Positions 4,348 to 10,206 of a stretch of 14,018 nucleotides of DNA are shown one piece after another (positions within the stretch are counted from its first letter, which is position 1; the number at the start of each line of letters is the position of its first letter). The notes beneath the pieces were generated by a model, which was not told where the DNA came from, made no database searches, and saw only the letters and a list, made by a program, of their open reading frames with translations. This DNA comes from Lactobacillus sp. (GTDB lineage Bacteria; Bacillota; Bacilli; Lactobacillales; Lactobacillaceae), in NCBI GenBank assembly GCA_003482405.1, contig DMZB01000099.1:1-14018 (forward strand), given 5' to 3'. The translations under genes and the position numbers were made by a program.

Positions 4348-5241
4348 ATGAATCCAAAACAACTTCGTAAACTCAAACGGCAGGTTGATCAACACAAATC
4401 TCAGCAAGCTGACGCACCGGCTGTTCAAACTGCATCAGCGTCCACATTGAAATCCGCCAACGATTATATCAGCCAAATGACTGACTTTCGTGAACAATTT
4501 AACGACTTCAGCGAGGCTGCCTTCCTCATTAACCAGGTGTTGGAAGCTGACCGGCTGTTAGCACGGGGCTTATTACCACAACCGTTGCCAGAGCTGTTAC
4601 TACCGGATAATTTTCAAGACACCGTTTATCAGCATGTCCTAAAACAATATCCCATTGGTGACAAACGTGGCGATCAGGTGTGGAATGAGCTGTCTGCTGC
4701 GTTACCTCGTTTGGATTCGGCGTTACGTAATTTCCGTGATTATCTGGAAGCCACCTATGGCATGTGGGCATACATCTCTGCGCCGTTTGTCAGTGACTTA
4801 AGCAAGTATCTCGACGGTCGCCCTACCCTTGAACTAATGGCCGGTAACGGCTATATTTCAAAAGGTTTGCGGGATAAACAGTTGAAGCAGGTAATCTACG
4901 CTACTGATTCCAAAGATTGGACCACAGAAAACGAAACCGGCAAACACCCGGTAACGGAAATCGAGCAATTAGACGCATTACGTGCCATTGAAAAATATGG
5001 TAATCAAGTTGGCGCTATCGTTATGTCTTGGTCTCCTGACGGTCAGGATATCGACTGGCAGGTCTTGCAGGCGATCCGTCAATTGCCAAACAAGCCCGAA
5101 TTCATTGTCATTGGTGAACGAAATGGGGCTACTGACTCTAAAACTTTTTGGCAAAATGCCGACCTTATGGAAAATGAATCGCTGAATCGTAACTTCGGTC
5201 AGTTTGACTTAATTCATGACCGTGTATACATCGTCAAGTAA
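4348..5241 (+). CDS. SAM-dependent methyltransferase-like protein
   Basis: 297 residues. A basic, Gln-rich helical N-terminus (1-30) is followed by a helical region (35-145). The Rossmann-type half carries a degenerate SAM-binding motif I, LELMAGNGYISKGL (161-174), an acidic motif II region YATDSKDW (184-191), a motif IV-like MSWSP (226-230) and a later strand FIVIGE (252-257). This order fits class I methyltransferases, but motif I has Asn167 where many have Gly or Cys, so activity is uncertain. Substrate unknown. GAAAGG at 4330-4335 overlaps the end of the previous gene and lies about 12 nt from the ATG. Fourth gene of the pepF cluster, 17 nt after the XRE gene. Confidence 0.7.
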   Translation: MNPKQLRKLKRQVDQHKSQQADAPAVQTASASTLKSANDYISQMTDFREQFNDFSEAAFLINQVLEADRLLARGLLPQPLPELLLPDNFQDTVYQHVLKQYPIGDKRGDQVWNELSAALPRLDSALRNFRDYLEATYGMWAYISAPFVSDLSKYLDGRPTLELMAGNGYISKGLRDKQLKQVIYATDSKDWTTENETGKHPVTEIEQLDALRAIEKYGNQVGAIVMSWSPDGQDIDWQVLQAIRQLPNKPEFIVIGERNGATDSKTFWQNADLMENESLNRNFGQFDLIHDRVYIVK

Positions 5242-6876: not shown

Positions 6877-6967
6877 TACTCACCGATCAACACCATTTTC
6901 TGCATCTAGATCGGTAAATGAGCAGATATGCCGATTATCTGAACTGCAGTTAGACGCCAAAAAACGT

Positions 6968-6998
6968 AAAAAAAAGCTTCTATCATAATTGATAGAAG
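6968..6998 (-). terminator. Intrinsic terminator of the minus-strand RNA
   Basis: A perfect 9-bp stem (6990-6998 with 6977-6985, loop of four) is followed on the minus strand by eight uninterrupted Ts (6975-6968). Only the minus strand has the T tract, which fixes the direction of the upstream element. Beyond it, TTTGGCG can pair with CGCCAAA before the hairpin, making an outer 7-bp helix around the terminator. Confidence 0.85.
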
Positions 6999-7237
6999 TT
7001 AGTTTGGCGTGTCTGGTATACCTCCCAGACTTGAGGGGTTCTTCAATCACGAAGAACTGAGTACCGGCACCCGATTAGTAGTCGGTGGGTGGGCCGCCGT
7101 GTTCCACAACACGAACGATCAAGCACTCCTTATACGAAGGAAAAACGTGCCCCCGGCTTCGATAGCCACTAGCTTCCGCAGAAGAACGACATTACTGCCG
7201 TCTGGCTGATCTCGACTCATCGCATGTAGACACCTTA
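6968..7237 (-). ncRNA. Unassigned structured RNA, about 260 nt
   Basis: No ORF here looks real, yet the stretch is GC-richer than its AT-rich flanks and dense in hairpins. Perfect stems (plus coordinates): 7011-7016/7025-7030, 7038-7044/7051-7057, 7068-7072/7087-7091, 7098-7103/7108-7113 and 7127-7131/7137-7141, the last extended by 7123-7126/7147-7150. Two more nest: 7164-7168/7203-7207 enclosing 7178-7181/7195-7198. ACTCA/TGAGT at 7215-7219/7058-7062 could close a multibranch core. The 3' end is the terminator at 6968-6998. A weak promoter, TTGCAT (7255-7260), 17 nt, TAAGGT (7232-7237), would start it near 7225; another start nearer 7254 is possible. I do not recognise RNase P, tmRNA, SRP, 6S, T-box, glmS, TPP, FMN, SAM or lysine motifs. 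It may be a free RNA or a long leader of the VOC gene. Confidence 0.6.
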
Positions 7238-7282
7238 ACATCTTATTGAGATGAATGCAAATATGACATTAAGACACTTTCT

Positions 7283-7311
7283 TTGACAGAATCGATTCAG
7301 CGACGTTAAAT
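7283..7311 (+). promoter_or_regulatory. Promoter of the small membrane protein gene with dyads
   Basis: Consensus -35 TTGACA (7283-7288), a 17-nt spacer and -10 TTAAAT (7306-7311). The spacer holds the perfect palindrome GAATCGATTC (7289-7298). Downstream lie AGTCAA-ACG-TTGACT (7350-7364) and CTTCATATGAAG (7375-7386), the last touching the ribosome binding site. Three dyads in the region suggest repressor sites, though short palindromes arise easily by chance. Confidence 0.5.
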
Positions 7312-7398
7312 ATAAATAAATAATGTTAAGTTAATTTTAAAGTTATAGTAGTCAAACGTTGACTCGATACGTTTCTTCATATGAAGGGAGTCTTGATA

Positions 7399-7662
7399 AT
7401 GCTGCGAACTGTCACTAAGTACCCTGTCACTATTGCAAAACTTAGCAGTTTTATCGTAAAAATTGGCTTAATTGTCTTTGCAGTTTGGACGCATAGTTTA
7501 ACTATGCTATCTCTGCTCGCCATTGCAGGAATGCTAGCGCTAAATGCACATTTCATCGTTTTTGAGACCACTGAAGACCACAGTTGGATCAACGTTTGGG
7601 ACTTGTTCTTTTCGATTGTGTTATTACTACTCAGCACTGTTCTCTTAATTGTTCGCTCTTAA
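7399..7662 (+). CDS. Small three-helix membrane protein, unknown
   Basis: 87 residues, not recognised. Hydrophobic segments lie at about 16-31, 34-55 and 66-84, with an acidic, aromatic loop (FETTEDHSWINVWD) before the last one; the N-terminus is basic. The start at 7399 was chosen because AGGGAG (7385-7390) is 8 nt upstream; the in-frame ATG at 7381 would put that site inside the coding region and lacks a site of its own. It has a consensus -35 promoter and a dedicated terminator, so it is probably monocistronic. It is divergent from the structured RNA and precedes the DedA gene. Confidence 0.72.
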   Translation: MLRTVTKYPVTIAKLSSFIVKIGLIVFAVWTHSLTMLSLLAIAGMLALNAHFIVFETTEDHSWINVWDLFFSIVLLLLSTVLLIVRS

Positions 7663-9289: not shown

Positions 9290-9769
9290 CTACTTTTCCG
9301 CTGTCTGTTCAGCATCCGCTGTTACCAGTTTTTCAATCTGTTCACGTAGCCAGTCAGTAATCTTTGCACTCACAGTATCCGTGTCATCTAGGAACGCCTG
9401 AACGGAACTGGCTGTATCAATGCGCATTTTCGAAACATTGATCGCCGGCGAATCAAAGATCATGTATAAATTGACCTCGCGAGTTTCGTCTGGGTCGAGC
9501 ATCTTATCAATTTCATTCGCGTAGGCAAATGGCAGATTGATAAGCGAGCTTTCCAACCGCACGTTTATCTCAACATCGTGAAACCCAGTAACATCGACAC
9601 GCGTCTGAACAAGCTTACCAGCGCTTAATTGCGCCTTAGCGAAGGCGATACTGTCAGCCATGACGCCTTCGGGATCGTCATTGAGTTTGTCAAACGTTGT
9701 TGTAGATGAGGTGCCAACGTACGTTTCATCTTGCAGCGCTTTTAAAAAATCGGCAACTTTTTCTTCCAT
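9290..9769 (-). CDS. Acidic soluble protein of unknown function
   Basis: 159 residues, no signal peptide or membrane segment, strongly acidic. I do not recognise a family. The middle (about 55-125) alternates like beta strands: VDVTGFHDVEINVRL, REVNLYMIFDSPAINVSKMR. The last 30 residues look like an amphipathic helix (ITDWLREQIEKLVTADAEQ). GGGAGAA lies inside the end of the upstream gene, 6-10 nt before the ATG, and only 2 nt separate the two genes. They are almost certainly co-transcribed and probably translationally coupled, which hints at a shared job with the membrane protein. Confidence 0.75.
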   Translation of the reverse strand: MEEKVADFLKALQDETYVGTSSTTTFDKLNDDPEGVMADSIAFAKAQLSAGKLVQTRVDVTGFHDVEINVRLESSLINLPFAYANEIDKMLDPDETREVNLYMIFDSPAINVSKMRIDTASSVQAFLDDTDTVSAKITDWLREQIEKLVTADAEQTAEK

Positions 9770-9771
9770 GG

Positions 9772-10206
9772 TTATTTTCTCCCGTTCGTCTGTTTATTCG
9801 TCTTGCGTTCAACCCAAATCCGGTTATTTTCCTCGTAGTTGCGTCGGAATCGTGCACCCGCCACAAACGCCTCAAAGTTGGTTACTAAGCCAATCACTGC
9901 AAAGAGGTCGATCATGACGTTAACGAATACGACACCATGTCCGGTGAACGTTTGAACCACTGCTAACAGTAACACAGCCGTCAAAATAATCAGAACAAAG
10001 GATTGCGGATAAACCGAAAAACGCCAGTTAAACGCAAACATAATCACAGGAATTGCGACTAACACGAGCATGATTCCTTCGTTTGCAAGGAAATGTGGCC
10101 ACTGCTGACTCGCATTCCCGCCAAAACCAAAGTAGACCCCCGCATTCACAATCGTGTAAAAAATCCAGGAAGCAATCGTCAGACTGACGACACGTGCATC
10201 TCTCAT
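9772..10206 (-). CDS. Four-helix membrane protein, unknown
   Basis: 144 residues with four predicted membrane segments (about 8-28, 42-60, 68-88, 92-113) and a basic, hydrophilic C-terminal tail (ARFRRNYEENNRIWVERK) that should face the cytoplasm. No family recognised. The ribosome site GAAAGG overlaps the lplA stop codon, 16 nt upstream on the message, so it follows lplA in one transcript. The acidic protein gene follows 2 nt later. A link to lipoate metabolism is suggested only by position. Confidence 0.75.
   Translation of the reverse strand: MRDARVVSLTIASWIFYTIVNAGVYFGFGGNASQQWPHFLANEGIMLVLVAIPVIMFAFNWRFSVYPQSFVLIILTAVLLLAVVQTFTGHGVVFVNVMIDLFAVIGLVTNFEAFVAGARFRRNYEENNRIWVERKTNKQTNGRK

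Follow-up and report, generated by a model that had tools for sequence, protein, structure and literature searches.

The window examined here is the whole 14,018-nucleotide (nt) stretch at positions 1-14,018 of contig DMZB01000099.1 in the Lactobacillus sp. assembly GCA_003482405.1, and all coordinates below are window positions. On its minus strand, from 7225 down to 6968, lies an independent RNA gene, with a promoter and a terminator of its own; this RNA and its complementarity to 23S ribosomal RNA (rRNA) are the subject of this text. Its parts are listed below, with 23S helix names (H89, H90) and nt numbers after E. coli.

6968..7225, minus strand: RNA gene of about 258 nt, its 5′ end placed from the promoter, the conserved start of the homologues and a streptococcal orthologue mapped by rapid amplification of cDNA ends (RACE)
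7255..7260, minus strand: −35 box TTGCAT, a 17-nt spacer away from the −10 box (assigned by eye from the sequence)
7232..7237, minus strand: −10 box TAAGGT, ending 6 nt before the RNA start (likewise assigned by eye from the sequence)
7212..7224, minus strand: 5′ leader UGCGAUGAGUCGA, complementary to 23S at about nt 2506-2518, with nt 1-13 invariant in an alignment of 26 sequences
7158..7211, minus strand: P1, a branched stem with two hairpins in the window's genus (covariation helices 2-4; fold)
7153..7157, minus strand: 5′ strand GCCGG of the long-range core helix (covariation helix 5)
7121..7152, minus strand: P2 stem-loop (covariation helices 6-7)
7092..7120, minus strand: P3 stem-loop (covariation helices 8-9)
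7103..7108, minus strand: apical loop of P3, UGUGGA, which covaries with nt 2474 and is complementary to the H89 loop of 23S (about nt 2473-2478)
7068..7091, minus strand: P4 stem-loop (covariation helix 10)
7063..7067, minus strand: 3′ strand CCGGU of the long-range core helix (covariation helix 5)
7038..7057, minus strand: hairpin A of a lineage-specific 3′ add-on (sequence and fold)
7011..7036, minus strand: H-type pseudoknot, with S1 CCUC 7036-7033/GAGG 7024-7021 and S2 GUCUGG 7030-7025/CCAGAC 7016-7011
7002..7010, minus strand: 3′ element ACGCCAAAC, whose GCCAAAC is complementary to 23S at about nt 2490-2496
6968..6999, minus strand: intrinsic terminator hairpin and U8 (sequence and fold)

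A sequence-only reading of this DNA had described a GC-richer, hairpin-dense and protein-free block at 6968..7237, and much of that description agrees with what we find: 100-nt windows have a GC fraction of 0.51-0.56 at 7000-7249, with flanking values of 0.36-0.38 at 6900-7049 and 0.25-0.38 at 7200-7399, and the local hairpins, the long-range helix and the terminator hairpin with its T8 (U8 in the RNA) are all present on the minus strand. Its 3′ limit of 6968 is correct; its 5′ limit of 7237 lies about 12 nt too far upstream, because the −10 box occupies 7232-7237 and the RNA begins near 7225. A plus-strand open reading frame inside the block (7009-7209, 66 amino acids) has no Pfam match. Across 125 homologues, promoter scores exceed those of shuffled sequences (at least 9 in 54, versus 6.3 expected), and the −10 box begins 13-14 nt ahead of the leader in 79 of the 95 homologues with a promoter score of at least 8; the automated pick for the window itself scores only 7 and is displaced by one or two nt from the boxes assigned by eye. 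The minus strand folds with a z-score of −2.21 (2 of 100 shuffles fold equally well or better), and the plus strand has the lower value (−3.47, 0 of 100 shuffles). Thermodynamics is thus modest evidence, and we assign strand and function from homology, as embodied in the alignment of 91 homologues described below, and not from fold energy.

The RNA had been called unassigned, and the Rfam search proposed as a check of that reading gives it a name: RF02840 (Ref68; Enterococcus sRNA 68, Lacto-3 RNA) matches 7099-7224 at 82.1 bits, against a cut-off of 44, over positions 1-124 of the 124-position model. The exclusion of RNase P, tmRNA, SRP and 6S RNA was sound, with no such Rfam match in the window and no tmRNA found there by ARAGORN. 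A 6S candidate does occur elsewhere in the same genome (RF00013, contig C341, 40.5 bits, below the 46.4 cut-off); the idea that our RNA replaces 6S was rejected in view of this candidate. In the window's family, 262 of 301 genomes have an RF02840 match at an E-value of 0.001 or better and 179 pass the cut-off; for its order, the figures are 223 of 395 and 118. Each matching genome listed has a single match. A Lactococcus control and named Streptococcus loci match too, which identifies the order as Lactobacillales, and the matches cover seven family codes (f1-f7); model searches did not find the RNA in the one f8 genome or in the four f9 genomes listed. A better model gives plausible matches in some of the genomes missed by RF02840 (21 of 25 handles at E-values up to 1, false hits included, since loose E-values also give false model hits, such as L134-L138). 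A class-wide model search found none outside the order in 299 genomes, with strict filters that also missed known members, so that absence elsewhere is unproven. The RNA is a member of the Ref68/Lacto-3/SSRC21 family, which spans seven families of Lactobacillales; since the family is in the catalogue already, novelty cannot be claimed for the RNA as such.

From 26 aligned homologues we built a 157-position full-length model, which matches, over its whole length, all 91 loci found through RF02840 (the 26 included). Standard pairs make up 89.5% of pair cells in the resulting alignment, and two-sided changes number 1038 against 278 in shuffles, with all slid versions far below, although these covariation counts are inflated by the fitting of the alignment to the structure. 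These figures bear out the earlier supposition of a functional, conserved structured RNA on the minus strand. The core runs from the leader through P1 to a long-range helix closing P2, P3 and P4, followed by the terminator. The long-range helix (7153-7157/7063-7067), which had been suspected to close a multibranch core, is 88% paired across the 91 homologues, covaries (GC, AU, CG, GU, UA and UG pairs) and encloses the three stems P2-P4. RF02840 covers only the 5′ half and ends inside P3; the 3′ strand of the long-range helix lies beyond that end, and the helix is absent from the RF02840 structure. One of the ten proposed helices, between leader nt 10-13 and a downstream UCGA, is poorly supported (54.7% paired), in line with the leader serving another purpose. 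Both P1 hairpins are missing in about one-third of the sequences of this alignment. In loci of genus g19 (L093, L096-L098 and others), P1 is reduced, and a GACUA that recurs close to P4 could pair with leader nt 8-12.

The link to 23S, both the complementarity and the co-evolution, had escaped the sequence-only reading. The complement of the leader was first met inside a 23S gene neighbouring one of the RNA loci. The 13-nt leader is complementary to 23S UCGGCUCAUCGCA at about nt 2506-2518, in H90 of the peptidyl transferase centre. For a comparison of each RNA with the 23S of its own genome, 107 genomes were queried, chosen partly for variant leaders or loops; 82 have a recognisable site and the other 25 have no 23S match in the assembly. 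All 13 leader positions pair in 76 of the 82 genomes, 12 in five and nine in one, and the common leader changes keep the pairing: U or C at position 10 and C or U at position 11 face G, and A or G at position 8 faces U. At position 6, the 23S nt 2513/leader combinations are A/U in 57 genomes, G/U in 12, G/C in 12 and A/C in none (81 genomes, omitting G537, which has a leader insertion), an association with a Fisher p of 4e-8 in an 80-genome set, relatedness ignored. A search of 14 genomes with the leader-complement pattern returned 72 matches, 70 of which are 23S copies or the RNA's own gene (positions compared by eye; the own gene does not fit the pattern in three variant-leader genomes, and 23S is missing from the window's assembly). 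When 20,000 shuffled leaders were set against one rRNA operon, 216 reached 13 of 13 pairs with G-U allowed and seven reached at least 12 Watson-Crick pairs. The leader duplex with 23S is predicted at −22.8 kcal/mol (14 base pairs, counting the A before position 1). By eye, nt 2513 changes together with its H90 partner in the seven operons compared, for which reason leader pairing and H90 should exclude each other.

In L104, the locus of G537, the leader insertion (UGCGACAGAGCCGA) breaks the 23S pairing and the P3-loop match is kept; this RNA may be a decaying or altered copy. Two other readings of the leader, as a start codon or leaderless mini-ORF and as a partner of the tRNA-fMet anticodon loop, were dropped, as 25 of 184 leader matches have ACG in place of the internal AUG (a few genomes are counted twice among the 184, and one entry, L187, probably represents a 23S site).

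The second contact displays the clearest co-change. The P3 loop is UGUGGA (or close forms) or UGUGAA/UGUGAG, and the H89 loop of 23S is UCCACA or UUCACA. Across the 81 scorable genomes of the 82, C2474 goes with a loop G in 60 and U2474 with a loop A in 21, without exception; the loops in this count were read from the model-based alignment, with G009 omitted for want of a P3 loop. Two automatic loop pickers gave less tidy tables: in the earlier one, a single U/G cell came from G009, where the match lies outside the RNA, and the second had three C/A cells and one U/G cell of 81, among which the G077 cell is a P2 loop. On a 23S tree built with the target region left out, the loop trait and nt 2474 each change nine times, and in all eight independent pairs on supported branches the two change together (p 0.0078). 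Within genus g23, G022 alone of six genomes has U2474 and alone has an A loop (its 23S was sought because its loop differs). The exact reverse complement of the H89 loop hexamer lies within nt 60-185 of 74 of the 82 RNAs. Co-change with 23S, which we proposed as the mark of 23S pairing, is thus found at nt 2474, and nt 2513 is compatible with it; the H89-loop contact is the stronger of the two. A further candidate, the P2 loop with 23S at about nt 2392-2397, is matched in 33 of 82 genomes, where the best control with reversed 23S reaches 26, with no covariation seen. The 16S rRNA was rejected as a target of the P3 loop: there is no covariation in six operons, G037 keeps UCCACA despite a UGUGAA loop, and the site is changed in G309 and G303.

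A third contact is predicted for the 3′ add-on, which consists of a hairpin, an H-type pseudoknot and GCCAA(AC) ahead of the terminator, and is displayed by the window's genus and by genera coded g2, g7, g8, g17, g19, g20, g29 and g39. Among 29 loci chosen because the domain was seen or suspected there, GCCAA is present in 28. A strict pseudoknot pattern fits 22 loci with six different S1 pairings (CCUC/GAGG, CCUU/AAGG, CCGG/CCGG, CGUG/CGCG, CCUG/CAGG and CGUU/AACG) and fails in six, where a shorter S1 is possible by eye. The 3′ element forms seven Watson-Crick or G-U pairs with 23S in 26 of 28 cases and has one mismatch in two (by eye), and its 23S site lies 9 nt from that of the leader, in collinear antiparallel order. 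Position and order, as opposed to covariation, make the pairing of GCCAAAC with 23S 2490-2496 a candidate contact. In the genome of L007, a stretch of over 100 nt (GGTGCTTTGGCGAGCGGTCATACGCC...) repeats downstream of the RNA where other loci carry the terminator; the 3′ end of this RNA may be altered, or the sequence misassembled.

The placement of the gene is a further point in favour of the 23S link. Of 45 genomes with the RNA and 23S on one long contig (from the 82, with G216, G330 and G569 omitted for their several contigs), seven, from four genera, have the RNA gene at most 5 kb downstream of a same-strand 23S copy; random placement predicts 0.24, with at most three in 2000 draws. The four genera may share one ancestral placement, and most genomes lack this arrangement. 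Comparison across genomes shows the RNA gene, its structure, the co-change with the H89 loop and the maintained complementarity to H90, and we hold it very probable that the RNA pairs directly with 23S rRNA.

The leader sequence also led us to a studied orthologue, SSRC21/SR914400 of Streptococcus pyogenes: the deletion primer 3inSSRC21 of PMC3675131 contains the reverse complement of UAUGCGAUGAGUCGAUUG. The full-length model matches all 23 named Streptococcus loci over positions 1-154 and none of four unrelated contigs, all 27 having been retrieved by one 18-mer from the SSRC21/leader start; the S. pyogenes locus itself is not among them. SSRC21 is flanked by genes for cardiolipin synthetase and anaerobic ribonucleotide reductase (PMC3675131). 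In S. phocae (L161), a gene for a PLD-type protein lies upstream of the RNA and one for an ATP-cone protein downstream, so that both SSRC21 neighbours are shared; S. uberis and others share the upstream gene, and further streptococci one or none. SSRC21 was mapped by circular RACE, and since the matches in Table 4 of PMC3675131 reach nt 152, its length is about 152 nt. Promoter and terminator are its own, Northern blots show it as a separate transcript, and its level is high in the exponential and early stationary phases and strongly reduced in late stationary phase (PMC3675131). Its deletion changes 142 transcripts, with V-ATPase (ntp operon) genes up 4.2-7.4 fold (PMC3675131). Under the name SR914400 it is described as highly stable (PMC2765633), and it is also listed in PMC3542284.

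We posit a trans-acting RNA that contacts 23S at two or three places near H89 and H90. The 13-nt leader would pair with the 5′ strand of H90 (about nt 2506-2518), the P3 loop with the H89 apical loop (about 2473-2478), and, in the window's genus and several others, the pseudoknotted add-on would present GCCAAAC to the 3′ foot of H89 (about 2490-2496). Leader binding would need an open H90 and the 3′ element an open H89 foot; as these contacts are incompatible with a folded H90 and H89 base, the full complex would form only on unfolded or immature 23S, with the H89-loop contact possibly made earlier or later than the others. Such an RNA could serve as a folding chaperone of the peptidyl transferase region, in the manner of a small nucleolar RNA (snoRNA), late in assembly of the 50S subunit. 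This is the most economical reading, given the high stability and growth-phase abundance reported for SSRC21 together with the need for immature 23S. Taken as a full statement, that a 23S-pairing, trans-acting RNA chaperones this region in 50S assembly, we consider it somewhat likelier to be right than wrong; physical binding in the cell, its timing on pre-50S particles and its benefit to assembly are what we infer. The more specific picture of a bacterial counterpart of chaperone snoRNAs, which docks loop-to-loop on H89 and holds open an H90 strand (in some genera also the H89 foot) and thereby governs how the peptidyl transferase centre completes its folding, stands in our estimate evenly balanced.

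Several observations weigh against the chaperone reading or its pairings. For leader position 6, supported branches yield just three or four independent pairs, a number too small to test; 12 genomes retain U6 with G2513, a wobble; the leader has mismatches in six of the 82 genomes and an insertion in G537, and it is partly paired in the predicted fold of the isolated RNA. The P3 hexamer also matches 16S, reversed rRNA gives similar 6-mer tallies, and unbiased tallies of this kind do not by themselves single out the 23S sites. G009 has no P3 loop; its RNA (L133) is a short family member with an intact leader. For the window, whose assembly shows no 23S copy, the pairing is taken from the same-genus genomes G061 and G024. 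Finally, the S. pyogenes SSRC21 deletion mutant is viable, and its effects are ascribed to mRNA targets, with the V-ATPase operon in view (PMC3675131).

The alternative that survives best accepts the 23S pairing as described and gives it another role: the RNA would be an inhibitor or quality-control factor that traps unassembled or damaged 23S or slows 50S assembly. The pairing evidence, namely the 13-nt leader match and the co-change with nt 2474, is identical for this reading, and a 14-base-pair leader duplex of the predicted stability would block the H90 strand. The maintenance of the RNA as a single gene, with one match per matching genome listed, suggests a routine role instead, and we regard inhibition as unlikely. 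Distinctly improbable is a titration scheme, in which free 23S precursor or fragments sequester an mRNA-regulating RNA and so couple ribosome production to gene expression. The 142 altered transcripts and the rise of the ntp operon in the SSRC21 mutant would suit it (PMC3675131); however, no conserved mRNA target turned up, with the search confined to the 14-genome leader-complement scan, in which all but two of the 72 matches fall in 23S or in the RNA gene.

Still less probable is a role as a guide, with a modifying enzyme directed to the unpaired 8-9 nt (about 2497-2505) that separate the leader site from the 3′-element site. Two arms flanking a short loop recall guide pockets, and the segment between them contains the modified sites m2A2503, psi2504 and Cm2498. 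Many homologues, however, end without the 3′ element, a box D CUGA is not among the invariant columns of the 26-sequence alignment, and the bacterial enzymes for these sites are not known to need guides. Just as doubtful is an ordinary mRNA-targeting small RNA with no rRNA role, its 23S match arising from chance and shared ancestry. SSRC21 is treated as mRNA-targeting in PMC3675131, and 6-mer matches to rRNA are common; against this stand the eight of eight independent co-changes with nt 2474 and a 13-nt leader match whose complement is near-unique in 14 genomes. In S. pyogenes, the RNA might act on the V-ATPase genes directly, or their response might be a secondary effect.

The sequence-only reading had left a choice between a stand-alone RNA and a leader of the VOC gene about 170 nt downstream, and the promoter and terminator speak for the former. 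A cis-acting leader, suggested by that spacing in the window, is exceedingly improbable: the VOC gene comes first downstream in just five of 180 loci (the window and four of the same genus), and Northern blots show the streptococcal orthologue as a transcript by itself (PMC3675131). More generally, the neighbourhoods do not resemble those of a riboswitch or leader, as the downstream neighbours differ between genera and the largest same-strand first-downstream classes shown hold 13 of 180 loci each. Some neighbours recur all the same. A protein without a Pfam match encoded at 9290-9769 (minus strand) has relatives beside the RNA in 38 of 180 loci, in most cases immediately upstream, and the next gene (9772-10206) has them in eight; in the window, both genes are separated from the RNA by a DNA-alkylation repair gene and a VTT-domain gene. 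On the other side, a 297-amino-acid protein without a Pfam match (4348-5241, plus strand) has relatives in 13 of 180 loci that lie downstream of the RNA and converge on it.

We know of no bacterial small RNA that pairs with 23S rRNA as a guide or chaperone. That role is usually credited to proteins. A search of the open-licence literature likewise gave no report of Ref68/SSRC21 pairing with rRNA and no bacterial guide or chaperone case, though absence is not proven by it. The novelty thus lies in the mechanism and not in the RNA family. If true, it would provide a function for an RNA present in seven families of Lactobacillales, call for a reinterpretation of the SSRC21 mutant of S. pyogenes and open RNA-assisted assembly of bacterial ribosomes to direct tests in harmless laboratory strains.

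Among known systems, RF02840 Ref68/Lacto-3 is the same RNA, with a full-length match to its 124-nt model; that model comes without a target and includes neither the long-range core helix nor P4 nor the 3′ pseudoknot domain, and it stops inside P3. 6S RNA (RF00013) is likewise a stand-alone structured RNA, with its candidate in this genome at the separate locus C341 and none here. SSRC21 resembles the window RNA in its leader, its match to the full-length model and its own promoter and terminator, whereas the streptococcal relatives examined have a smaller P1 and no 3′ add-on; in the accessible parts of PMC3675131 and PMC2765633, it is presented as a putative mRNA regulator without a link to Ref68 or rRNA. 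Unlike the snoRNAs, the window RNA has no known partner protein and no conserved box D (the invariant columns of the 26-sequence alignment contain no CUGA) or box H/ACA ending (ACA three nt from the 3′ end), its 3′ end being a bacterial intrinsic terminator with a U-run. What it would share with the archaeal and eukaryotic box C/D, H/ACA and rRNA-chaperone snoRNAs is that it pairs with rRNA in two or more places close to the catalytic centre.
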